10,605 nt of DNA, taken from the NCBI GenBank assembly GCA_017541565.1, contig JAFXYU010000267.1, forward strand, positions 1-10,605, in the 5' to 3' direction. The notes below the pieces were generated by a model. It was not told the DNA's origin and made no database searches. It saw only the letters and a list, made by a program, of their open reading frames with translations. The position numbers were made by a program, and so were the translations under genes. Position 1 is the first letter of the stretch. Every line of letters starts with the position of its first letter. This DNA is from a bacterium (lineage in GTDB: Bacteria > Cyanobacteriota > Vampirovibrionia > Gastranaerophilales > Gastranaerophilaceae). Below, piece by piece: positions 384 through 10,246 of the stretch.

Positions 384-890
384 TTATTTCGATTTATTCC
401 ACCAATGTTTTTTCTTGGTTTTTTCTTGGTCTTTGATAACAGTTACTTCATCCTTTGCGTCATAAAAGTTTGTTGCGCCATACGCATTTGCACGAGAGAT
501 ATCAGCAACTCCTTTCTCGTATGTCATTGAACCTCTCATTTTTTGTACTTCTTCCGAAGTTTCCCCGTTGCCGTTTACATCATTTGCAAACTTGTTTTTC
601 CAAAGAGTTTGAGTATCCATTCTTCCGAAACCGAAAGTGTTATCGTAATCTTTGAATTTATAGTCAACATTGTTCATTTCACCTGTTGAGTTTTCATACA
701 ATTTTCTTGTCAAATCCTGCTGTTCAGGGTTTGCATAATTTTGTTTAACGGTGTTTGATGCCGGGTCTTTCCCCAAAAAGTGCATTCTGCCGATACCGTC
801 TGTATAAATTGTAGATTCTGCCATTGCGGAAGCCGTAGCCACTACAAAAGCGGTCATTAAACTTAATGAAACAATTAATTTTTTATTCAT
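384..890 (-). CDS. Secreted protein of unknown function (168 aa)
   Basis: I do not recognise a family. Residues 1-24 form a classical signal peptide: basic start (MNKK), hydrophobic core, then a cleavage site AMA|E at 24/25. The mature protein is about 144 residues, soluble and polar, with no membrane segment and no cysteine. Two phrases echo each other: DGIGRMHF near residue 35 and FGFGRMDT near residue 90. The C-terminus is strongly basic and tryptophan-containing (KKKHWWNKSK), which could contact membrane or peptidoglycan; that is a guess. The start is supported by AAGGAG 8-9 nt upstream of ATG. It has its own promoter (912-939) and terminator (336-364), so it is a single-gene unit although it follows the OmpH-like gene. 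Confidence 0.8.
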   Translation of the reverse strand: MNKKLIVSLSLMTAFVVATASAMAESTIYTDGIGRMHFLGKDPASNTVKQNYANPEQQDLTRKLYENSTGEMNNVDYKFKDYDNTFGFGRMDTQTLWKNKFANDVNGNGETSEEVQKMRGSMTYEKGVADISRANAYGATNFYDAKDEVTVIKDQEKTKKKHWWNKSK

Positions 891-1478: not shown

Positions 1479-3830
1479 TTAATTTTCTCCGTAATAATTA
1501 TCAAGACGTGCTAATATACGCGCATCACGCTCCTGCATATCTTCATAAGGATTAAGAGTGTACAAAATTTCCTTAATGTATTCACCATTTTCGTTTTTAT
1601 TTTTGGGATCTATCTCTTTTAGTTCATTATAATATTTTAGATAATTCATTTTTAACGACTGTGTTCGGGGTAGTTCTCTGAATTTAAAAATGTTATTGGC
1701 AATTTCTACATCATTTTTTCCTTTTCTGCCCTGAATTAATAGTATTTCATAAAAAGATACAAGTGTTTCTATCGGTAACTGATACATCGTCTCATCGTTG
1801 GACACACGATAAAGTTCATCTGCCATAGCCTGCTCCATTGCAATCAATCTTAATTTTGAGTCAGCCATGAACATGTTTTTACCAATTTCGATAAACGGAG
1901 CCACTTTCGTTTTTGTTGTTCTTTGGCACATTCTTTGTTTAATGTTTTCCGGCGAAAGACCTTTTGCTGTCAATTCATATTCTTCCTTCGTCCAAGTGAT
2001 ATTATACATTTCATAAGGATTTACAAATATTCTCATTTGTCGTGCAACTTCACTTGCATATATTTCGCCTATTTCTTGAGGTAAAAAGAAGCCCAATCTT
2101 TGCTTTAACTGGTTATAAACTGAAATTATTCCTCTTTCTTTTTCAATGTTTTCATATTGCTGCCAATAGGGTTTAACTTTTGATTCTAATTTTTCAGGCA
2201 GATTATCCATAAAATTTTGGAAATATTTTATCTTTACATCTTCAGGATATGCACTTTTCTCCGAAAACACCATTAATAATGACCTTCCGTAGGATGAAAA
2301 ATACCTTTCGATTTCTTGCATCTCTTCGTCAGATAATCCATTCGTAAATAAAAAGTAATTATAACCAAGTTTTTGACCCTCTTCTTCCGACAAATCTCTC
2401 TTAAATTCTTCATACTGTCTTGCCATTCTCACTGTATTTATAGGATTTTTTATAGAATTAGTCTCTGCTCCTTGCTTCAGCATAGCTATCAATGTATCCA
2501 TCGGGAATGTATATACATCAGCCGACATACCTTTCGAATACAGTTCATTTGCAATGGCAACGCTGAGCGCTCTTTCTATCTTAGTTATGTGGTTATGTAT
2601 TTCTGTACCCTCTGCACTGTTAATGTATGGTGACATGATTTCATATATAGATTTATTTTCTTTCATCAATTGAGTACACTCTTTTATTGCCTCCGGAGGC
2701 ATTATTTCCGTGTAAAAATTCGTCATATCCTTTATGTATGACTTAGGCAAAAGATTATTTGGATCATACGTTTTTTTAATAGTCACTGCGAAATCTTCTT
2801 TGTAATCAATAACTTTTTCTGTCTTTACAGCCTCTTGAATTTGAGTTTTTTCTTTAGCCGCAACCTCGGCTGCTTTTGTTCTTTCTTCTGCACGCTTTTC
2901 ATGCTCCAACATTTTTATTCTGTACGCTCTGTTTCTCAATATTTCCTGTTTCACATCCTCAACCTGACCGCTTTGAAGCGCATCTTCTACTCTTGATTGT
3001 GCATCTCTTATTTTTTCACCGAAAATTTCCGCCATATCTCTATGAGTTGCCCAAAATTCAGTCATAACCCTGGACTGAAATTCGCTGAACTCTTCTGATG
3101 AATACAATAAATCAACAGGCTTGAATATCTGCTGTTCTTTCAAAAATGCGGACAATTCCTTGATAAGTTCAGGATAATGATTCCACGCATCTATCATTGC
3201 AAATCGGATTGGCTCACGCTCAAGGCGCATTTTTTGGATAAGTTCCGTTCTTTCCTCCGGCGACATTTCACGCCATCTGACAGTCAGCCTTCTGACTCTT
3301 TTTAAGTGAACGGTATCCTTATCCCTTTCGGACAGATTTGCATAAAATTTCTCAATATTTTTCTTCATCCAAAGAACAAAAACATCTTTGTCCTTTAAAT
3401 TTGAAGTTCCGACCGCTATTCTTTTTTTGGTTAACTTAGCCTCTCCAACCACATTTTCGGTTTTGCTTTTTCTTTTTTGCGTCCTTACAAAACTCTTATA
3501 ATCCGAAAACAAATCGTCTTCTGAATCTATACCTGCAGCATATTCAAGTTTTTCGTTATATGAAAGTGAATTCCACCAATTATCACGTCCTTCACACCTT
3601 CTTGAAAGAATTTCAAACCGCTGCTCCTCTGTAAGACTGTTCCAATACTTATACTGAGCCTCAGAAATTTTTAGACCGAATGCATCAGAATATCCTTCTC
3701 TTGTGAATCTGAGTGAATTTTGATATGCAACGTCAGGAAGATAAATTTCCAGCGCCTTCAAAGTTGATGAATGTACATATTGACCGTCAGGATTTCTTCT
3801 TTTGTATTCCGTTTTGATATCCGGATTCAA
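1479..3830 (-). CDS. Large repeat-containing protein of unknown function, probably the C-terminal part of an interrupted gene
   Basis: This is a 783-codon open frame I cannot assign to a known family. Its only reachable start is TTG at 3828-3830, with no Shine-Dalgarno sequence. The preceding in-frame codons are TAA-CAT-GAC, and the TAA ends the upstream 155-aa frame. Visible structure: four short repeats of the form aromatic-x-x-[Leu/Met]-[Ser/Thr] followed by charged residues (62-74, 85-97, 162-174, 185-197; for example WWNSLSYNEKLEY); a highly charged Lys/Glu/Ala helix, possibly coiled coil (about 300-340); and a duplicated module of about 75 residues (378-452 and 625-695) sharing [PS]PE-x-IK and A-x-A-x-ELY...Y-x-x-P-x-[DE]TL. 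There is no signal peptide or transmembrane helix. It is probably an intracellular scaffold or an unusually exported protein; function unknown. Confidence 0.7.
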   Translation of the reverse strand: MNPDIKTEYKRRNPDGQYVHSSTLKALEIYLPDVAYQNSLRFTREGYSDAFGLKISEAQYKYWNSLTEEQRFEILSRRCEGRDNWWNSLSYNEKLEYAAGIDSEDDLFSDYKSFVRTQKRKSKTENVVGEAKLTKKRIAVGTSNLKDKDVFVLWMKKNIEKFYANLSERDKDTVHLKRVRRLTVRWREMSPEERTELIQKMRLEREPIRFAMIDAWNHYPELIKELSAFLKEQQIFKPVDLLYSSEEFSEFQSRVMTEFWATHRDMAEIFGEKIRDAQSRVEDALQSGQVEDVKQEILRNRAYRIKMLEHEKRAEERTKAAEVAAKEKTQIQEAVKTEKVIDYKEDFAVTIKKTYDPNNLLPKSYIKDMTNFYTEIMPPEAIKECTQLMKENKSIYEIMSPYINSAEGTEIHNHITKIERALSVAIANELYSKGMSADVYTFPMDTLIAMLKQGAETNSIKNPINTVRMARQYEEFKRDLSEEEGQKLGYNYFLFTNGLSDEEMQEIERYFSSYGRSLLMVFSEKSAYPEDVKIKYFQNFMDNLPEKLESKVKPYWQQYENIEKERGIISVYNQLKQRLGFFLPQEIGEIYASEVARQMRIFVNPYEMYNITWTKEEYELTAKGLSPENIKQRMCQRTTKTKVAPFIEIGKNMFMADSKLRLIAMEQAMADELYRVSNDETMYQLPIETLVSFYEILLIQGRKGKNDVEIANNIFKFRELPRTQSLKMNYLKYYNELKEIDPKNKNENGEYIKEILYTLNPYEDMQERDARILARLDNYYGEN
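1746..2699 (-). repeat. Duplicated ~75-residue module within the large protein
   Basis: Residues 378-452 (2475-2699) and 625-695 (1746-1958) align by eye: PPEAIKE with SPENIKQ, AIANELYSKG with AMADELYRVS, and VYTFPMDTLI with MYQLPIETLV. Spacing between the landmarks is closely similar. Divergence is high, so the duplication is old. Confidence 0.5.
3240..3647 (-). repeat. Four WxxL[ST]-type protein repeats
   Basis: This segment encodes residues 62-197 of the 783-aa frame. Aligned by eye the repeats are YWNSLTEEQRFEI, WWNSLSYNEKLEY, FYANLSERDKDTV and RWREMSPEERTEL. Each starts with an aromatic or basic-plus-aromatic pair, has Leu/Met-Ser/Thr at positions 5-6, and continues as an acidic/basic helix start. 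The pattern superficially resembles the last helix of HMG-box proteins (W-x-x-L-S-x-x-E-K), but no other part of an HMG box is evident. Confidence 0.55.
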
Positions 3831-3839
3831 GTCATGTTA
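3828..3839 (-). other. In-frame stop joining two frames of one likely gene
   Basis: Reading on the minus strand, the 155-aa frame ends GAT-TTG-TAA and the same frame continues CAT-GAC-TTG-AAT-CCG into the 783-aa frame. No frameshift separates them, only one TAA. An ATG overlapping this stop (3833-3835) is out of frame and closes after two codons. No ribosome binding site precedes the TTG. The simplest reading is a nonsense mutation in a gene of about 941 codons; programmed readthrough or translational restart is possible. Confidence 0.65.
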
Positions 3840-4304
3840 CAAATCCATATTAACATCATATAAGGTCATTGCCTCAATAAAAAATTTTTTCAAAAGATAA
3901 ACCGTAAAATCACTCCCGTCATTTAAAATACTGTCTTCATACAGGTCTTTAAATTCTCGGTATATACCCAAAAGTCCGTTATGCGCTTTTGTATCCTTTA
4001 TGGATTTGAGGTATATAAAAAGTTCCTCATTCGGAAACAATCTTTGAACATCCTCAATATTTTTCGCTTCATTGAGTTTCTCATACGCTTTGCTCTGAAG
4101 TTCAAGAGGAGTAAATGCAAACTTATCAACCACCTGACTTAAAAAATCCTTAATCGTTGTCGGAAAGCGTTTTTCGTGAAATTCATAAAATCTCACCATG
4201 CTTTTGTCGACACGAGCCACACCGAAAGAAGGCTGAAATGTTTTATTTTTATTATATCTTGTGTGATTTATATTGTAATATCCTGTTATACTGTTTACTT
4301 GCAT
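3837..4304 (-). CDS. Tagged protein of unknown function (155 aa), probable N-terminal piece of an interrupted gene
   Basis: The family is not recognised. It opens with MQVNSITGYY and then FQPSFG at residues 23-28, the N-terminal signature shared with the products at 5465-6766 and 10025-10246. Residues 74-155 align with residues 105-187 of the 433-aa protein: NEAKNIEDVQRLFP against NECETIEDVRKLYP, and later a hydrophobic helix ending in TLYDVNMD against TLSDVQAD. The two therefore share a domain. The frame stops at one TAA and continues directly in the same frame into the 783-aa gene, so this is probably the head of a longer protein. AGGGA lies about 8 nt upstream of the ATG. There is no signal peptide or transmembrane helix. 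Confidence 0.7.
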   Translation of the reverse strand: MQVNSITGYYNINHTRYNKNKTFQPSFGVARVDKSMVRFYEFHEKRFPTTIKDFLSQVVDKFAFTPLELQSKAYEKLNEAKNIEDVQRLFPNEELFIYLKSIKDTKAHNGLLGIYREFKDLYEDSILNDGSDFTVYLLKKFFIEAMTLYDVNMDL

Positions 4305-4367
4305 TAGTTTTCCCTGTCTAATGTTTTAAAAACCTCTAAAAAAATTTTTTGCTACTTAGTTTTATGT

Positions 4368-4379
4368 TAATATTCAATT
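4368..4379 (+). promoter_or_regulatory. -10-like element placing the transcript start at the aminotransferase ATG
   Basis: TAATAT (4368-4373) ends 6 bp before the ATG at 4380, and no Shine-Dalgarno sequence is visible upstream of that ATG. A start 6-7 bp downstream of a -10 would fall on the A of the ATG, giving a leaderless mRNA. No convincing -35 is seen, so confidence is low. Confidence 0.3.
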
Positions 4380-5468
4380 ATGAAGATTGCGCAGTTCAAA
4401 GTTGAAGAATGGATGAACAGGTACGAAAGTTCGGCAAAGTATGACCTTACAACTACTTGTATTAAACCTTTGTCAATACAGGATTTATGCGGTTTTGCTC
4501 CGCCGGAGATTTTAACAAAACCGCTTACCTACGGAGATATTACCGGTTCTGACAAATTAAAAGGCGAAATTGCCAAACTATATTCAAACACCGAACTTAA
4601 AAATATTACGATTACGCACGGTGCAATCGGAGCAAATCAACTTGTATTTCTTTCGCTACTGGAAAAAGGTGACGAAGTTGTATCAATCGTTCCTACATAT
4701 CAACAACATTATTCTATTCCGGAAGCCTTTGGTGCAAACGTTAAACTACTTTTTTTGAAAGAATCAAATAACTGGCTTCCGAATATAGAGGAATTGGAAA
4801 ACGCTGTTACGAGAAAGACAAAGTTGCTCTGTTTAAACAATCCAAACAACCCCACAGGCGCGGTAATACCCGACGAAATGCTCAAACAAATTGCGGAAAT
4901 TGCTCAGGAAAATAATATATGGGTTCTTTCTGATGAAGTATACAGAGGTCTTAACCTTGAAGGAAATCCTTATTCGGTTTCTTTTGCGGATATTTACGAA
5001 AAGGGTATTTCTGTCGGCAGCATGTCTAAAACGTATTCTCTCCCCGGATTAAGAGTAGGATGGATTGCAGCGAGAGAAGATTTGATTGATGATATAAACA
5101 AACAAAGACAGTATAATACAATCAGCGTAAGTATTTTGGATGATTATTTTGCGTCAGTTGCTCTTAAAAACAAGGATTGGATTGCGGAAAGAAATTTTAA
5201 AATACTGAAAGAGGGATATTCCATATTAAAAGACTGGACGGAATTTGAACCATATATCAAGTGTATACTTCCTCAAGGCGGAACGACGGCTCTTTTAAGG
5301 CTTAGAAAAAATATTCCTTCTAAAAAATTCTGTTATGATTTGCAAAAAGCAACAGGAGTCGCGCTTCTTCCAGGTGAAACAATGGAAATGGAAGGACATG
5401 TCCGTTTGGGATTTTGTGCGGAAAACCTTAAAGAGGCATTGATTACGATTTCAGAATTTCTGAGTTAA
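4380..5468 (+). CDS. Class I/II PLP-dependent aminotransferase (fold type I)
   Basis: This 362-aa enzyme is of the aspartate aminotransferase superfamily. It would move an amino group between an amino acid and a 2-oxo acid, or act on a related amine, using pyridoxal phosphate in the cytoplasm. Visible signatures are NNPNNPTG (153-160) with the cofactor/substrate Asn, SDEVYRG (184-190) with the Asp and Tyr that bind the PLP ring, and SMSKTYSLPGLRVGW (214-228) with the Schiff-base Lys217. Arg342 in HVRLGF is the likely substrate-carboxylate arginine. The opening FKVEEWMNRYE resembles the subgroup that includes capreomycidine synthase-like enzymes and uncharacterised relatives, so the substrate is unknown. 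I keep the ATG at 4380 because this N-terminus looks conserved, although it lacks a ribosome binding site. It is a lone plus-strand gene between two related tagged genes. Confidence 0.88.
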   Translation: MKIAQFKVEEWMNRYESSAKYDLTTTCIKPLSIQDLCGFAPPEILTKPLTYGDITGSDKLKGEIAKLYSNTELKNITITHGAIGANQLVFLSLLEKGDEVVSIVPTYQQHYSIPEAFGANVKLLFLKESNNWLPNIEELENAVTRKTKLLCLNNPNNPTGAVIPDEMLKQIAEIAQENNIWVLSDEVYRGLNLEGNPYSVSFADIYEKGISVGSMSKTYSLPGLRVGWIAAREDLIDDINKQRQYNTISVSILDDYFASVALKNKDWIAERNFKILKEGYSILKDWTEFEPYIKCILPQGGTTALLRLRKNIPSKKFCYDLQKATGVALLPGETMEMEGHVRLGFCAENLKEALITISEFLS

Positions 5469-6766
5469 TTTGTTGTTGCATTGTCTTTTGTTTCCGCAAA
5501 AATAGCATCTGTTGCTTGTTTTAGAATTTCATCGGCTACTTCCGTGTTTATTTTATAATTTTCAATATTTTCATTCAAAGTTTCTTTAAAACGCTGCCTT
5601 CTCTCTTCCGTCCAGAAGCATTTGAAGAAAATATTTTTATAACTCTGTTCAATTTTTTCTATATCACGAGCCATGGCTTCAAGGTCAAACTTAGATTTAT
5701 ATTCCTTATACCCCGAAGAATTTAATACGTTTCGGTATGAATCCAAAGTTCTTGACATTTTATACAGCCTTTTCAACAGACGATCCTGTTTCTGATTAAA
5801 TTTACCGTCCTCTTCAATATAGGTAGAAATGGGGTTGTTGGTTTTTATTTCTCTGTTTCCGTTTGTATATTTAACAACCAAATATGTATCAATCAACTTG
5901 TCGGTTTTATATATTGATGCTTCCGGAAACATTGTTTTATGCCAGACTGCCGGTATTTTTTTCCATTGCTCGCTCATCGGACCCGTTAACCAGTACAATT
6001 CCTTTTTCAAACCGCTTTCTTGCCATGTCTTTGTCATTATTTCAGATTTAATCTCATTTGTATCTTTTTCTTTACATGAAACTATTTTTTCATTCATACT
6101 TTCCGAATATTTAACTAACGACCTTAATTTCGGTTCTAAAATATTAAATGCTTTACCATATTTTCTAAAATAATTATATCCGCGTATAACATCACCATTC
6201 CCAACATCTGCCTGAACATCACTAAGTGTCAAAAATTTCAGGTAATTCTGCTTTATCATATCAATAATGACTTTTTCCGGATTACCGCTGTCAATCATTT
6301 TTTGCGAAATGGATGTCGTTTTGTAACCGTATTTATCAAAAAAATTACGATTTATTCTTTCAAATCCTTCTATATCAATATCGTTGGGATTAATTTCCGG
6401 ATACAACTTTCTTACATCTTCAATAGTTTCACATTCATTCAGCCCCGAATAATATTCTTCAACGGTTTCACTTATTTTAAAATTATTTTCTTGAATATTT
6501 GTTTTAAGTTTGTTATAAAGACCTTCGGGTATTTTACCGTCACACTTTTCCAGTCTTTGCTTTAAAGATTGTTTGTATTCTTCAATATTAACAAATTCAT
6601 TGGTTATTGTGTATTTTCTGGCAGCAAGATATGAACCGTAAAGTCCGGTAATAGTCGATGTTACAAGACCTGCTGTCTTTGTAAGTTCTTGTGGGGATAC
6701 GCTTTTAAAACTGATACGAGAACGATAATTCCGTGATTGTACATTGTTTACGGCATTAATTTGCAT
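5465..6766 (-). CDS. Tagged protein of unknown function (433 aa)
   Basis: I do not recognise the family. It begins MQINAVNNVQ and has ISFKSV at 19-24, the same N-terminal signature as the products at 3837-4304 and 10025-10246. Residues 31-49 (TAGLVTSTITGLYGSYLAA) are mildly hydrophobic and could be a membrane-associated helix. Residues 105-187 match the 155-aa protein (ETIEDVRKLYP region). Tryptophan-rich phrases occur at 258-275 (YWLTGPMSEQWKKIPAVW), and FWTEERRQRF nearer the C-terminus resembles the repeats of the 783-aa product. The rest is charged and helical. AAGGA lies about 9 nt upstream of the ATG and a consensus -10 lies at 6793-6798. Its stop overlaps the convergent aminotransferase stop. 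It may belong to the same lineage-specific family as the interrupted gene; function unknown. Confidence 0.8.
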   Translation of the reverse strand: MQINAVNNVQSRNYRSRISFKSVSPQELTKTAGLVTSTITGLYGSYLAARKYTITNEFVNIEEYKQSLKQRLEKCDGKIPEGLYNKLKTNIQENNFKISETVEEYYSGLNECETIEDVRKLYPEINPNDIDIEGFERINRNFFDKYGYKTTSISQKMIDSGNPEKVIIDMIKQNYLKFLTLSDVQADVGNGDVIRGYNYFRKYGKAFNILEPKLRSLVKYSESMNEKIVSCKEKDTNEIKSEIMTKTWQESGLKKELYWLTGPMSEQWKKIPAVWHKTMFPEASIYKTDKLIDTYLVVKYTNGNREIKTNNPISTYIEEDGKFNQKQDRLLKRLYKMSRTLDSYRNVLNSSGYKEYKSKFDLEAMARDIEKIEQSYKNIFFKCFWTEERRQRFKETLNENIENYKINTEVADEILKQATDAIFAETKDNATTN

Positions 6767-6792
6767 GCTGGTAATTCCTTTATTAGTACCTA

Positions 6793-6798
6793 ATTATA
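6793..6798 (-). promoter_or_regulatory. -10 element upstream of the 433-aa protein gene
   Basis: A perfect TATAAT lies on the minus strand 26 bp before the ATG, with the AAGGA ribosome binding site between. No good -35 is seen at 16-18 bp. It suggests that this gene is transcribed separately from gatD. Confidence 0.4.
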
Positions 6799-6843
6799 CA
6801 ACTCCCGTAAAAATTATTTTTGCTATTTATAAATGCTGATTTC

Positions 6844-6864
6844 ACAAATCTTAATAAGATTTGT
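6844..6864 (-). other. AT-rich hairpin over the gatD stop codon
   Basis: Bases 6844-6852 and 6856-6864 form a perfect 9-bp stem with a 3-nt loop that spans the gatD stop codon. No U-run follows on the minus strand, so it is at best a weak terminator or a 3'-end stabiliser. No better terminator is visible between gatD and the 433-aa gene. Confidence 0.4.
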
Positions 6865-7555
6865 TAACTAAACTGTTATGGCAAAGAGTTTCGGTTTTGT
6901 CACCTAAGGGCGGAAGTTTTTCACCAAGGGCAAGTTCTATCAAAAAATCTGCAAACTGCGGATTTTTGGGTAAAAATGAACCGTGAAGATACGTTCCGAA
7001 TACGTTTTTATATCTTGCACCTTCCGTTTTGTCCGCTCCGTTGTTTCCGTTTCCAGTAATAACCGTTCCGATTGGTTTTGTGTCACCGTTTAAGTATGTA
7101 AGTCCGCTATGGTTTTCAAATCCGACAAGAGTTTTTGGAGTCACCATATTAGTTTCAACCGTAACATTCCCAATAAATCTTTTATTTCCTGCGACCGTAT
7201 AAGCGTCCAAAAGACTTATACCGGAGAGTTTTTCACCTTCTCTCGGCTGATAATAATGTCCGAAAAGTTGATATCCGCCGCAAATACCCAGAAAAACAGC
7301 ACCTCTGTCACGTTCATTAATCAAAAACTCTTTATGCTTCTGCAAATCTTTTGAAACCTCTATTTGCTGCAAATCTTGTCCGCCGCCCATAAAATATAGG
7401 TCATGCTCACAAATAGAATCAACCTGATTAATCTCATCAACAATAACTTCGATTCCGCGCCACTCACATCTTTTTTTTAGTGCAATAATATTTCCGATGT
7501 CACCGTAAATATTTAAAAGTTTTGGATAAAGATGTCCGATTTTCAGAGTCTTCAT
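6851..7555 (-). CDS. gatD: Lipid II isoglutaminyl synthase, glutaminase subunit GatD
   Basis: GatD supplies ammonia from glutamine to MurT, which amidates the alpha-carboxyl of D-Glu in lipid II to D-isoglutamine. The 234-aa product is a CobB/CobQ-type class I glutamine amidotransferase. It starts with IGHLYPKLLNIYGDIGN, typical of GatD; MGGGQD follows at 56-61; the nucleophile Cys92 sits in GICGGYQLFG; and the catalytic His191 sits in YLHGSFLPKNP. An Arg near 126 matches the position proposed for glutamine binding. Length is close to the usual 240-260. The ATG overlaps the recO stop as ATGA, and AAGGA lies 9 nt upstream, indicating translational coupling. murT, normally adjacent, is not found on either side here. 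Confidence 0.93.
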   Translation of the reverse strand: MKTLKIGHLYPKLLNIYGDIGNIIALKKRCEWRGIEVIVDEINQVDSICEHDLYFMGGGQDLQQIEVSKDLQKHKEFLINERDRGAVFLGICGGYQLFGHYYQPREGEKLSGISLLDAYTVAGNKRFIGNVTVETNMVTPKTLVGFENHSGLTYLNGDTKPIGTVITGNGNNGADKTEGARYKNVFGTYLHGSFLPKNPQFADFLIELALGEKLPPLGDKTETLCHNSLVNKSY

Positions 7556-8316
7556 AGTGAAAGTTCCTTCACAAGTTTTGCAGATTTTTGACGCTTATTA
7601 GTATGAGTTTTTATATATTCGTCAAGAAGATCAAAACAAACCTGACAAACTTTTTCTGTTGCTTTTTGGTCATACTCGCTTTCAAAATTGAAATCAAATT
7701 GGAGCATCGCCTGTAAAAAATCTCTTATTTTGTGGTGCATTTTAAGTTTCACACCGAGAGGTTCGCAGCACTCTTTGCAAACTACTCCGCCCATTTGGGT
7801 TGAAAAATACATATCTTCGTCTACAATTCTTTCTCCGCAGCACAAACAGGTATCAAGTTCTACGCAAAATCCCATAATAAGAAGCATTTTTAACTGGAAC
7901 TTGATTGCGGCAATCAACATATCTTTTTTTTCTTTGGAGTCGGATATTCTGTTCAAAGCCTTGTATAAAAGTTCGTAAATTTCAGCGGAAGCAGTCTCCG
8001 AACCCTCGCCAAAATTCATAACAACTTCGGATACATAAGTGGAAAGAGTTAACTTGTCAATATCTTCCCTCGTTTTTCTAAAGTGGTTAACGGTTTGCGC
8101 CTGCAAAATTGTATCCATAGAACGCCCTTTGAGAAGTTGAAGCGTGTTGGCAACCAATAAATCCATTCTTGCTCCCAACTTACTCTTTGGCTTTTTAATC
8201 CCTTTTGCTACTCCCTTAATTAAACCGTTATCTTTGGAATACATAACAATAATCTTATCCGCGTCGTTAAGATTGTACGACTTGAGATTTATTGCTTCCG
8301 TAACATAGTTATTCAT
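7552..8316 (-). CDS. recO: DNA repair protein RecO
   Basis: RecO works with RecR (and RecF) to load RecA onto SSB-coated single-stranded DNA in gap repair. The 254-aa product has the expected order: an N-terminal OB-fold (about 1-80) with EAINLKSYNLNDADKIIVM and the basic KGIKKPKSKLGARMD stretch, a helical middle, and a four-cysteine zinc site (C157/C160 in CLCCGE, C180/C183 in CKECC) of the type found in many RecO proteins. The following helical tail is rich in Lys. Length is normal (240-260). It overlaps the pilT end by 8 bases and the gatD start by ATGA, so it sits in the middle of a tightly packed operon. Its own ribosome binding site is weak, consistent with coupling to pilT. Confidence 0.95.
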   Translation of the reverse strand: MNNYVTEAINLKSYNLNDADKIIVMYSKDNGLIKGVAKGIKKPKSKLGARMDLLVANTLQLLKGRSMDTILQAQTVNHFRKTREDIDKLTLSTYVSEVVMNFGEGSETASAEIYELLYKALNRISDSKEKKDMLIAAIKFQLKMLLIMGFCVELDTCLCCGERIVDEDMYFSTQMGGVVCKECCEPLGVKLKMHHKIRDFLQAMLQFDFNFESEYDQKATEKVCQVCFDLLDEYIKTHTNKRQKSAKLVKELSL

Positions 8317-9406
8317 AATATGCTTTTGTTCCCTGATAAACTCCCCTGAAAATCTTTTCTAATGCGGATTCGTCATTTGAATTATGCAATGCCTCTTCCT
8401 GCGAAATATACTCTTTATCAACAAGTTGTGCAAGTGAAGTGTTCAACGAAATCATATTGTCTATTGTATTATCATTCAAGAGTTCATAGATTTCATCCGT
8501 ATTATCTTTGTTTATATAATCTCGAATGGTTGGAGTTACAACCATAATCTCGCATGCCGGGAATCGTTTCTGATATTTTTCCGAAAATACCAATTTCTGT
8601 GCGATTGTTGCACGCAAGGTATCTGACAATTGTTTTCTGACAAGATATCTGTTAGACTCCTCAAACATATTAACAATTCGGTTTATGGTCTGAACCGCAT
8701 CATTTGTGTGAAGTGTTGATAAAACAAGATGTCCCGTTTCCGACGCTTTTAGAGCCGCAGCCATAGTTTCCTGATCGCGGATTTCTCCTATGAATATAAC
8801 ATCCGGATCTTGTCTCAGAGCATATTTTATGCCATCAGAGAAACTTTCTGTGTCAACACTGACCTGACGTTGGGAAATAATGCTCTTTTTGCACCCGAAA
8901 ACATATTCAATAGGATCTTCAATAGTCACAATATGTTTTGATGTGTTTGTGTTAATTTCATCTATCAAAGATGCTATTGTTGTAGATTTTCCGCATCCGG
9001 TAGGACCGGTGACGAGAATAATTCCGTTTTGCTCTTTTATTATTTCGCTCAATATGGGCGGAAGTGAAAGTTCATGAATTTGAGGAATGCTGTATGAAAT
9101 ATTTCTTACTACAAGACCGGGCTGACCGATTTGACGGTTGTAGTTAATTCTGAACCTTGAACAGCCTTTAATTTCGTACATAAAATCTACATCACACATT
9201 GTTAGAATTTTGTCTTTTATTGCCGTCGGTGAAATTTCAAGAATTGCTTCATCCAAATCCTCTTTTGTCAAAGGATCCATGTTTATTTTTTTTATAAAAC
9301 CATTCTTTCTTATATAGGGTGAGTGCCCGACTTTAAGGTGTTCATCGGAAGCACCTGTTGCTACTGCACTTTTTAAAAACTGTATTATATCAAACTTTTC
9401 ACTCAT
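8309..9406 (-). CDS. pilT: PilT-family type IV pilus retraction ATPase
   Basis: PilT is a hexameric cytoplasmic ATPase that depolymerises type IV pili, driving twitching motility, adhesion or DNA uptake. The 365-aa product carries the family's landmarks: GASDEHLKVGHSPYIRKNG (18-36) from the N-terminal PAS-like domain, Walker A GPTGCGKST (134-142), Asp box TIEDPIEY (161-168), Walker B VIFIGEIRD (203-211) and His box STLHTNDA (230-237). The C-terminal region has an ISQEEAL-type ending. The position of the AIRNLIRE motif, important for retraction in characterised PilT, reads TIRDYINK, so only Ile and Arg are kept. GAGGAG lies 8 nt upstream of the ATG. It is first in the operon with recO and gatD. 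A PilB-like role is less likely, as the long N-terminal domains of PilB are absent. Confidence 0.92.
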   Translation of the reverse strand: MSEKFDIIQFLKSAVATGASDEHLKVGHSPYIRKNGFIKKINMDPLTKEDLDEAILEISPTAIKDKILTMCDVDFMYEIKGCSRFRINYNRQIGQPGLVVRNISYSIPQIHELSLPPILSEIIKEQNGIILVTGPTGCGKSTTIASLIDEINTNTSKHIVTIEDPIEYVFGCKKSIISQRQVSVDTESFSDGIKYALRQDPDVIFIGEIRDQETMAAALKASETGHLVLSTLHTNDAVQTINRIVNMFEESNRYLVRKQLSDTLRATIAQKLVFSEKYQKRFPACEIMVVTPTIRDYINKDNTDEIYELLNDNTIDNMISLNTSLAQLVDKEYISQEEALHNSNDESALEKIFRGVYQGTKAYYE

Positions 9407-9427
9407 TCGGATATCTCCTCATATAAA

Positions 9428-9456
9428 ATCGTACCATCATAGAAAACTTTTGACAA
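9428..9456 (-). promoter_or_regulatory. Promoter of the pilT-recO-gatD operon
   Basis: On the minus strand a -35 TTGTCA (9451-9456, 5 of 6) and a -10 TACGAT (9428-9433, 4 of 6) are separated by 17 bp, and a TGG directly before the -10 gives an extended -10. It lies between the upstream terminator (9483-9499) and the GAGGAG ribosome binding site of pilT. Confidence 0.6.
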
Positions 9457-9482
9457 CAAAATTACAAAAGTTCAAAATAAAA

Positions 9483-9499
9483 ATCGGCTTAATGCCGAT
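9483..9499 (-). terminator. Rho-independent terminator after the Cys-rich small protein gene
   Basis: Stem ATCGGC/GCCGAT (9483-9488 with 9494-9499) has a 5-nt loop and is followed on the minus strand by TTTTATTTTG. It lies about 20 bases past the stop at 9522 and insulates the pilT operon. Confidence 0.85.
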
Positions 9500-9521
9500 C
9501 TTGAAAAACTTTTTAAATTTA

Positions 9522-9875
9522 CTAGCAAGAATAACTGCAACAACCGCCGGAGAAACTTCCGCCCGAAGATGCGATTGAACCGCAAGATTCACCGCTGCCT
9601 GAGAAAGCAATTGAGCCGCAGGATTCGCCTGAACCTTCGTATGATACAAATTCTCCGGACTCTCCGAATGCAATAATATCAGCATCCGTAGGACCTGAAT
9701 AGAAACTGCATGTATCAAGTCCGCCATCTGCAATCCCTGTTGATATTAAAGATGTATTATTTGAAATTAAACTTGTATTATCTGAAATCAATCCGCCTTC
9801 ATGTGCCGGAGTTACGGTACCGAGAAGTTTAGCGCAATTTGATGATTCTTCATTTTTACAGTAGGCTGCTAACAT
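9522..9875 (-). CDS. Small Cys/Gly/Ser-rich repeat protein (117 aa), unknown function
   Basis: The family is not recognised. The N-terminal half contains a 7-residue tandem, LISDNTS-LISNNTS-LISTGIA (29-49). The C-terminal half contains a 12-residue tandem, GSGESCGSIAFS-GSGESCGSIASS (81-104), and ends GGCCSYSC. There are eight cysteines (6, 14, 56, 86, 98, 112, 113, 117), few basic residues and no classical signal peptide. The first residues (MLAAYCKNEESSNCAK) are polar. The layout, a leader-like front and a repeated Cys/Ser/Gly tail, is compatible with a ribosomally made modified peptide precursor, a metal-binding protein or a disulfide-rich surface protein. No modifying enzyme or transporter lies in the window, so no choice can be made. 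AAGGA lies 7-8 nt upstream of the ATG and a strong terminator follows. A 98-codon frame overlapping it is a shadow. Confidence 0.7.
   Translation of the reverse strand: MLAAYCKNEESSNCAKLLGTVTPAHEGGLISDNTSLISNNTSLISTGIADGGLDTCSFYSGPTDADIIAFGESGEFVSYEGSGESCGSIAFSGSGESCGSIASSGGSFSGGCCSYSC
9564..9635 (-). repeat. 36-bp tandem repeat encoding the 12-residue Cys repeat
   Basis: Two adjacent 36-bp units encode GSGESCGSIA(F/S)S. They differ at several, mostly synonymous, bases, so selection seems to have kept the protein repeat rather than this being a fresh slippage event. Confidence 0.75.
9729..9791 (-). repeat. 21-bp tandem repeat encoding LIS(D/N)NTS
   Basis: About two and a half copies of a 21-bp unit encode LISDNTS, LISNNTS and LISTGIA. 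The DNA units differ by a few bases. Confidence 0.65.
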
Positions 9876-9968
9876 TTATGTATCCTTATTAACATTTCTT
9901 ACATATATATAAAGTTTTAAAAAAAATCCTAATTTCAAGACTTATTTTTTTTGTTACAAATATTAACA

Positions 9969-9997
9969 TTCGCTTAAAAAATAAGTGTAATTATGAT
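9969..9997 (+). promoter_or_regulatory. Possible promoter of the 73-aa tagged protein gene
   Basis: A -10 TATGAT (9992-9997, 5 of 6) is preceded at 17 bp by a poor -35, TTCGCT (9969-9974). It sits 28 bp before the ATG in the divergent intergenic stretch. Support comes mainly from the -10. Confidence 0.35.
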
Positions 9998-10024
9998 ACT
10001 TTATCCATGGGAAAGGTATGAAAA

Positions 10025-10246
10025 ATGCAAATAGATAAAATTAATTCAACGAATTTCAACGGAGGAATTGTTGTTCCTGCCGCAATAAATACAAAAAATA
10101 AGTATCTGTATAATCAGGTTCTTGACGTGATAAAGGAAAATCATGTTTCCGCAATCATCTCAAACAGAGGTTTTGACTTCTCATCCGTAACTGACAAGAT
10201 TATAGCAGAACTCAAAAATTTAGGAATAGCATTTTTGAAAAAATAA
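10025..10246 (+). CDS. Small tagged protein of unknown function (73 aa)
   Basis: It starts MQIDKINSTNFNGG, the clearest example in the window of the N-terminal signature also seen at 3837-4304 and 5465-6766. The remaining about 58 residues look like a compact alpha/beta unit: strand VVPAA, helix YLYNQVLDVIKENH, strand SAIISN, helix VTDKIIAELKNLG and strand IAFLKK. There are no cysteines and no signal peptide. AAAGG lies about 8 nt upstream of the chosen ATG; an ATG 7 bases earlier opens only a six-codon frame. A clear terminator follows at once, so it is monocistronic. Function unknown; short length and an independent transcription unit argue for a real small gene. Confidence 0.75.
   Translation: MQIDKINSTNFNGGIVVPAAINTKNKYLYNQVLDVIKENHVSAIISNRGFDFSSVTDKIIAELKNLGIAFLKK

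Follow-up and report, generated by a model that had tools for sequence, protein, structure and literature searches.

The window, by which we mean the whole stretch of DNA analysed here (10,605 nucleotides), is a complete contig (C127) of a draft genome assigned to the Gastranaerophilaceae (1.77 Mb, 80% complete, 308 contigs). It contains three open reading frames (ORFs), at 3837-4304, 5465-6766 and 10025-10246, with products of 155, 433 and 73 amino acids (aa), which share a short N-terminal leader in front of different bodies. The existence and the starts of the three ORFs were confirmed as given in an earlier interpretation made without database searches (the sequence-only reading), and in all three a sequence resembling a Shine-Dalgarno site precedes the ATG (by eye). 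At the DNA level, the pattern M-[K/N/Q/H/D/E]-[I/V]-x-x-[I/V] opening a frame of more than 30 codons occurs in the window at just these three sites. No Pfam or NCBIfam family scored over its cut-off for any of the three products. The features concerned are as follows (pLDDT, per-residue confidence of the structural model).

4218-4304, minus strand: leader of the 155-aa ORF, residues 1-29 (MQVNSI ... SFGV), with start block M1-I6 and F block F27-V29, supported by orthologue leaders
3837-4304, minus strand: 155-aa ORF, N-terminal part of a longer gene, ending at an in-frame stop (3837-3839)
1479-3830, minus strand: 783-aa ORF that follows this stop immediately and in frame, without a Pfam or NCBIfam match over the cut-off
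6701-6766, minus strand: leader of the 433-aa protein, residues 1-22 (MQINAV ... ISFKS), in a region (residues 1-57) with pLDDT <50
5465-6766, minus strand: 433-aa tagged protein with a mostly helical body, unknown family, 16 homologues
10025-10063, plus strand: leader of the 73-aa protein, residues 1-13 (MQIDKINSTNFNG), both blocks kept in 15/15 re-located homologues
10025-10246, plus strand: 73-aa tagged protein of a small family, matched in 18/65 genomes of the genus, its own included

The leader is a modular element made of two blocks and found on many unrelated bodies: a start block, M-[K/Q/R/N]-[I/V]-x-x-[I/V], at the extreme N-terminus, an acid-poor linker rich in Asn, Gln and Ser, and then, near the body, an F block, [S/N/T]-F-x-[G/A/S]. 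We regard it as practically certain that this element is real, and that it is selected in several families of the genus. The sequence-only reading had described it as the literal start MQ[IV][ND]x[IV] followed by a Phe-containing tract, and had mentioned similar starts on many Gastranaerophilales proteins. Such starts are indeed common in the genus, and a second family of the order has them as well. The Phe-containing tract proved to be a second block that matters as much as the start, but its proper form is F-x-[G/A/S], and the homologues of the 433-aa protein do not have it at that place.

Frequencies were determined on ORFs from 1.2 Mb of six genomes of the same genus (G033, G005, G015, G009, G020 and G011), from 0.4 Mb of G044, which belongs to another family, and from 20 contigs of the window's own genome (G000), several of which had been picked for pattern matches; in our genome codes, g1 stands for the same genus, f1 for the same family, and f7, f8, f9 etc. 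for other families. For simple expressions, the starts of ORFs of at least 100 aa were compared with internal methionines as the control. In the six-genome sample, the literal MQ[IV][ND]x[IV] opened 3/1036 ORFs and followed 0/5010 internal methionines (p 0.005). It was rejected as the tag because it is too narrow, Gln being one of four residues (K/Q/R/N) at position 2. The expression M[QNKD][IV]xx[IV] was found at 33/1036 starts versus 15/5010 internal methionines (odds ratio 11, p 3e-15), and the motif is thus clearly more frequent at protein starts than expected by chance, a point on which the sequence-only reading had made its proposal depend. When F-x-[GAS] within 45 residues was added, the counts became 14/1036 and 2/5010 (odds ratio 34, p 1e-9), while a looser expression gave 24/1036 and 36/5010. 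In G044, neither the excess of M[QNKD][IV]xx[IV] (7/361 starts versus 12/1622 internal methionines) nor that of the start pattern with F-x-[GAS] (1/361 versus 3/1622) was significant; single clear tagged cases are present there all the same.

Related genomes were searched with a weight matrix for the two blocks that left the gap between them free; each genome group was tested with a matrix trained on the others, with thresholds of 7 and 5. Above 7 the matrix found 41/1679 ORF starts and 1/6306 internal methionines over all groups (G000 8/130, G033 7/370, G044 2/400, G005 11/259, G015 and G009 together 3/198, G020 6/182 and G011 4/140), and 31/1149 starts versus 0/4468 internal methionines with G000 and G044 excluded. 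As the seed expression had been written after examples were seen, this test is held out, not blind. The matrix prefers Q/K/R/N at position 2, I/V at 3, N/S/Q at 4, P at 5 and I/V at 6 of the start block; around the F, it prefers P/V/T/I and then S/N ahead, and K/N/R/Q and then G/A/S behind. About 3% of the starts in the sampled genus (31/1149) are tagged, or, by extrapolation, some 50 in a genome of 2 Mb; this is a minimum, as the count took in first ATGs alone. Applied to 200 kb of each of two outgroups, the matrix scored above 5 in 0/193 ORFs of G080 (f8, without FlhA) and at 2/199 starts of G057 (f9, FlhA present), one of them above 7, so that the tag is a Gastranaerophilales feature in these samples. 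Base composition confounds the counts of the DNA pattern over the 289 class genomes, on which no argument is built here. Mutual clustering of tagged genes was considered and rejected, with three adjacent pairs versus 1.8 expected.

The bodies behind the leader are of many kinds. By eye, 10 of the 68 matrix matches above 5 were dropped as likely false, leaving 58 tagged proteins (57 in the hydropathy, composition and proximity counts, after an eleventh was dropped). In these motif-picked proteins the majority consensus is confined to the leader (M-x-I-x-x-I..F) and one Gly, and the mean column identity is 7%. Their Pfam families at an expectation value (E) of at most 1e-4, considering the best 25 of 45, include 5'-nucleotidase (4), AAA (4), M16 peptidase (2), GT2, HEAT, DSP-type phosphatase and others, while 60 random untagged proteins belong mostly to housekeeping or enzyme families among the best 25 of 91; this control set contains at least one protein now deemed tagged (L021:924). 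Domain scans of single proteins, some of which, such as the Fic protein L047:1377, were chosen by eye and not by the matrix, add Fic, RHS repeats, a glucan-water-dikinase-like domain and a marginal alpha-amylase match; an HNH match in a tagged protein scored 23.8 bits against a cut-off of 21.4. In the tagged GT2 protein the domain starts at residue 37, with the tag ahead of it. A simple hydropathy rule found Sec-like starts in 0/57 tagged and 251/1548 untagged proteins, and 46/57 tagged proteins have no predicted membrane segment.

These data bear on the explanation that the leader is the start of one homologous domain, or a chance resemblance among protein starts. It agrees with the 73-aa family, in most of whose members leader and body keep the same register, the leader being so inherited like any sequence within a family, and with the simple expressions in G044. 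Considering that the 58 tagged proteins have differing Pfam domains and share the leader only, and that the held-out matrix separates starts from internal methionines so well, we consider this explanation extremely improbable. The view of the sequence-only reading, that a short N-terminus is shared by unrelated bodies, is accordingly upheld; the sorting, modification or partner-docking role that it suggested is hypothetical.

Within families, the blocks are kept while the linker diverges among orthologues, which indicates selection on the leader. The tagged 5'-nucleotidase has two matches in 25/34 g1 genomes and one in the remaining nine. The 54 copies from 30 fetched loci yielded 51 distinct N-terminal extensions of 33-49 aa; F[KR] is present in 49/51, F[KR][GAS] in 35/51, and the reversed [KR]F in 8/51, and when the residues after the third were shuffled (2000 rounds), F[KR] was found in a mean of 15.2 and a maximum of 32 leaders. 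These 5'-nucleotidases (L030:4993-8156, L115-L144) have no Sec-like start and lie in tandem at the loci showing both copies, and the f7 homologues begin instead with a Tyr/Pro/Gln-rich extension. The idea that the tag replaces a Sec signal of relatives was rejected, in that the homologues from other families, by eye, have no clear Sec signal and carry other polar extensions or tag-like starts (20 stretches fetched, 6 of them without a readable start and several more with internal-looking starts only).

A second tagged family, of 326 aa, looks like a polytopic helical membrane protein and has 825 homologues at E <= 0.001 among those scored. Among the best 120 of these 825, K, V and N occupy positions 2, 3 and 4 in 103, 102 and 105 cases, and an F..Y motif lies at residues 9 to 22 in 119/120, with F most often at residue 11 (88), it being noted that F and Y belonged to the search expression. 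F11 and Y15 are invariant in an alignment of 49 rows that we chose out of the 120, and a homologue from another family of the order, 40% identical, keeps both blocks (L058:14654-15694). A second F-x-[GAS] lies in an internal loop of the aligned rows (P0019-P0138; residue 173 of P0019), with F in 49/49, K/R at +1 in 42/49 and G/A/S in 49/49. A stricter expression found this internal copy in 29/120 homologues, and the expression itself may be at fault. An internal duplication was not supported, as hhalign found no similarity between the two halves beyond the motif (E 0.17).

Of the families represented in the window, that of the 73-aa protein could be re-located at 15 of 17 loci, and M[KRQY][IV]..I and F-x-[GA] were present in all 15, three of them counted from an internal ATG. 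For the 433-aa protein, the protein database yielded 16 homologues, which are 476-496 aa long and show 29-37% identity when aligned. M[IV][KN]x[IV] stands at or near the start of 15/16 of them, and F-x-[GAS] is found at the position of the window's F20 in 0/16; where the body begins there is a conserved F (F58 in the window; LF[AES][SN] in many homologues), which may or may not be the same element as the F block. A profile of the 433-aa family gave three matches only against the PDB (best E 0.046, the others weaker), and a fold search with the 433-aa and 326-aa models returned no PDB match at E <= 0.001.

The 155-aa ORF had been listed by the sequence-only reading as one of three different proteins. 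The ORF is real, but it is the N-terminal piece of a gene cut by an in-frame stop. Its family is present in 33/65 genomes of the genus. In 21 other genomes, its relatives at E <= 1.1e-26 lie in a single frame of 935-1000 aa in 19 cases and in shorter frames (269 and 698 aa) in two, and weaker matches sit in frames of 731-774 aa. In the window, the stop at 3837-3839 (minus strand) ends the 155-aa ORF, and the 783-aa ORF resumes in the same frame from 3830; together with the intact frames of the relatives, this identifies the 155-aa ORF as a gene fragment. The 783-aa ORF is most likely the remainder of the same gene, and the stop may be due either to a broken gene or to a sequencing error. A search with the 155 aa alone against 5.8 billion proteins found just the query itself among 20 candidates, which the length window of the search can explain. 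The 23 readable in-genus orthologue leaders (the truncated L199 was left out of these counts and of those for the 73-aa family) range from 23 to 52 aa, with linkers very different in length. M[KRNQ][IV] opens 21/23, I/V/L is at position 6 in 23/23, and a strict F-x-[AGS] precedes the body in 19/23, the other four having, by eye, FLG, FLG, FGT and FEG.

What such a leader might do is suggested in part by its composition. Compared with the proteome, the linker is poor in Asp (0.36x), Glu (0.40x), Leu (0.45x) and Ala (0.49x), and rich in Asn (3.4x), Gln (2.4x), Ser (1.5x), Thr (1.3x) and also Tyr. Acidic residues make up 5.0% of the linkers versus 17.3% of internal and 14.4% of N-terminal polar windows of untagged proteins, and 17.9% of the tagged proteins' own polar windows after residue 80; the mean net charge of the leader is +2. 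In the structural model of the 433-aa protein, residues 1-57 have a pLDDT <50; in the model of the 326-aa protein, residues 1-9 and 158-175 do, with F173 inside and F11 just outside these stretches. The leader is predicted to be disordered or polar. A composition filter applied to 1434 untagged proteins picked 50, with the Pfam families Flagellin_N (5), FlgE/F/G-type (4), FlgD (2) and FlgK (1), so that exported flagellar proteins account for 12/50 if none was counted twice. Some tagged proteins missed by the matrix are also among the picks. In our view, this retrieval of exported flagellar proteins is the best independent hint for export.

Genes for a flagellum-type export machinery are near-universal in the order. 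FlhA (PF00771) was found in 56/57 relatives and in 235/289 genomes of the class, FliP (PF00813) in 232/289, and the window's own genome encodes both families; in this search of the class, no genome of f8 or f13 had a match. The scores of FlhA and FliP each split into a higher and a lower class. One higher-class FlhA (L113, G036) is over the NCBIfam FlhA cut-off and adjoins FlhB. One lower-class FlhA (L082:2979-5063, G005) is under both the FlhA and the SctV cut-offs and lies beside FliE, FliF-like and FliH-like genes; in G044 the neighbours of the lower-class protein are rod-type proteins, a transglycosylase, FliE, FliF and a FliI-like ATPase. A second, divergent gate of the flagellum type is thus present in nearly all sampled genomes of the order (L082:2979-8995, L052:9518-19997, L106:17349-19439). 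Among the matches listed, the FlhA of many f1 genera is of the lower class only, and FliP is represented there by one lower-class match; best scores and counts served to assign a class to second matches outside the list. The divergent gate seems to be the sole gate in many of these genera. G143 and G249, which have no full-length FlhA, keep a FliP match and matches to the DNA pattern (8 versus 0 and 3 versus 1 in the control, respectively), so that assembly gaps are indistinguishable from gate loss. Complete flagellar sets are given for just three of nine Gastranaerophilales in a passage of Soo et al. (2014, PMC4040986).

Besides these two classes, there is a protein some 490 aa long that combines a separate N-terminal part with an FlhA_C-like region scoring 137 bits to FlhA. 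Over the 289 genomes of the class it matched at E <= 1.5e-78 in 192/193 same-order genomes with a match (the exception being G262), while all 17 matches outside the order had E values of 7e-37 or weaker; coverage was seen for part of these matches, and that in G000 is a fragment. The neighbours of this stand-alone protein (L073:13918-15384, L098:18224-19690) resemble, by eye, BamA and Skp.

The leader is probably an address label, possibly for export. The more specific proposal, that it is an export signal for the flagellum-derived type III apparatus, is tentative, and we put its probability at about 0.4; both the reading of the leader by the apparatus and the secretion of the cargo are part of what is proposed. 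In the start block, a Met that is probably retained is followed by hydrophobic residues at positions 3 and 6; the export gate would read this block and, separately, the downstream F-x-[G/A/S] block, the two being joined by a flexible linker. The reader would be the flagellum-derived gate, including where the canonical flagellar copy is missing, and the cargo would be exported from the cytoplasm in the absence of a Sec signal. This proposal is favoured by the position and bipartite build of the leader, its low pLDDT, the acid-poor linker, the lack of Sec-like starts and the near-universal gate. It is favoured also by the four 5'-nucleotidases among the 58 tagged proteins, which have no start resembling a signal peptide, the 5'-nucleotidase architecture being usually exported, and by the absence of tags scoring above 5 in G080, which has no FlhA.

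Several observations weigh against export. Tagged genes do not cluster with type III genes, 4/57 tagged versus 128/1587 untagged genes lying within five ORFs of one of 20 query genes that we chose. In G057, FlhA and two FliP matches coexist with just two starts above 5, so that the presence of the gate alone does not predict the tag. The polytopic-looking 326-aa family, with its second F-x-[GAS] in an internal loop, would be an odd exported substrate, and AAA ATPases (4/58) are frequent among the cargo. The two blocks are absent, by eye, from flagellin and from the hook and rod proteins. The composition filter, which was set after the composition of the tag had been seen, also passes plainly cytoplasmic families (UPRTase, sigma-70, GGDEF), and it passes just 20/50 tagged proteins of at least 100 aa. 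The linker is neither enriched in Pro (0.8x) nor depleted in basic residues (Lys 0.98x, Arg 1.18x). Type III signals are treated by Arnold et al. (2009, PMC2669295) as depleted in four residues, namely Leu, Glu, Asp and Ala, and the published lists have Ser, Thr and Pro enriched and basic residues depleted; the agreement is thus partial, the Asp/Glu/Leu/Ala depletion and Ser/Thr enrichment fitting and Pro and basic residues not. Finally, a passage of PMC8983047 describes type III signals as having no common peptide sequence, whereas here two blocks are kept within families of the genus.

The lack of clustering, the 326-aa family and the f9 genome are the reasons why export is not rated higher. 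They are also why we consider the main alternative quite conceivable, if doubtful, namely that the two blocks are a short linear motif by which unrelated proteins, soluble or membrane-bound, dock inside the cell at one common hub (a scaffold, a site on the membrane or a chaperone), with no export. Such docking would account for the tagged AAA ATPases and other cytoplasmic-looking bodies, for the distance from type III genes, and for the 326-aa family, where the motif occurs at the N-terminus and again in an internal loop, with F173 in a stretch of pLDDT <50 and the two halves alike in the motif only. However, F[KR][GAS] is not a general internal motif (beyond residue 50 of untagged proteins it occurs 259 times, and its reversal 275 times), the internal copy of the 326-aa family was met in a minority of homologues with the stricter, perhaps faulty, expression, and a simple linear motif would have no need of the Met block at the N-terminus, which is likewise conserved. 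It is rather unlikely that the basic, acid-poor leader just sticks to the membrane, or aids initiation or stability, without a specific receptor. Its mean charge would suit this, as would K/Q/R/N at position 2, which keep the initiator Met according to the methionine aminopeptidase rule; but a physical effect needs neither F[KR] in 49/51 diverged leaders nor two fixed blocks across linkers of very different length.

Returning to export, the proposal can be extended to a flagellum-derived gate turned into a general non-flagellar secretion route, with the two-block leader on at least 50 or so proteins per genome, the FlhA_C-like protein as receptor, and the incomplete flagellar sets being this very system. 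The cytoplasmic domain of FlhA is a docking platform for subunits, and the idea of a receptor stems from the fact that, among the genomes searched, strong FlhA_C-like matches are confined to the order, where the tag is frequent, while it is nearly absent from two genomes outside. We regard this extended scheme as improbable.

The published gate recognition motif of early flagellar subunits is F-x-x-x-hydrophobic, from which F-x-[G/A/S] differs; by eye, and with no count made, FKSLY and FNGGI among the tags fit it, and FRAVS and FKGLN do not. The start block is also just partly hydrophobic, with alternating polar and hydrophobic residues. The likeness to those subunits lies in the division into two elements, one of them at the extreme N-terminus, that are set apart by a spacer, as described in PMC8983047. 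With type III effector signals, as portrayed in the excerpts of PMC2669295, the leader shares the extreme N-terminal position, the polar character, the paucity of Asp, Glu, Leu and Ala, and the occurrence on unrelated bodies; in the present case export is a proposal. Sec signal peptides are likewise N-terminal addresses, but the leader has no hydrophobic core, and none of the 57 tagged proteins looks like a signal-peptide carrier. No description of a two-block leader was found in the portions of the open-licence full-text literature covered by our search, most subscription literature lying outside it. A known domain is lacking in many carriers, so that their site of action and their partners may be best approached through the leader. 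If the leader were an export code, the secreted proteins of a gut lineage that has hardly been cultured could be listed, and a type III signal could be recognised from its sequence.

Two further proteins of the window deserve mention. The one encoded at 384-890 (minus strand), like that at L042:8331-8792, has by eye a Sec-type start, and its likely mature start, TIYTD[GD]IGRMHF[LM]GK, resembles the F block of the tag. The other, at 9522-9875 (minus strand; compare L038:16870-17220), is rich in Ser and Gly, contains repeats such as LISDNTSLIS and ends in a Cys-rich part, and a similar start occurs in G033.

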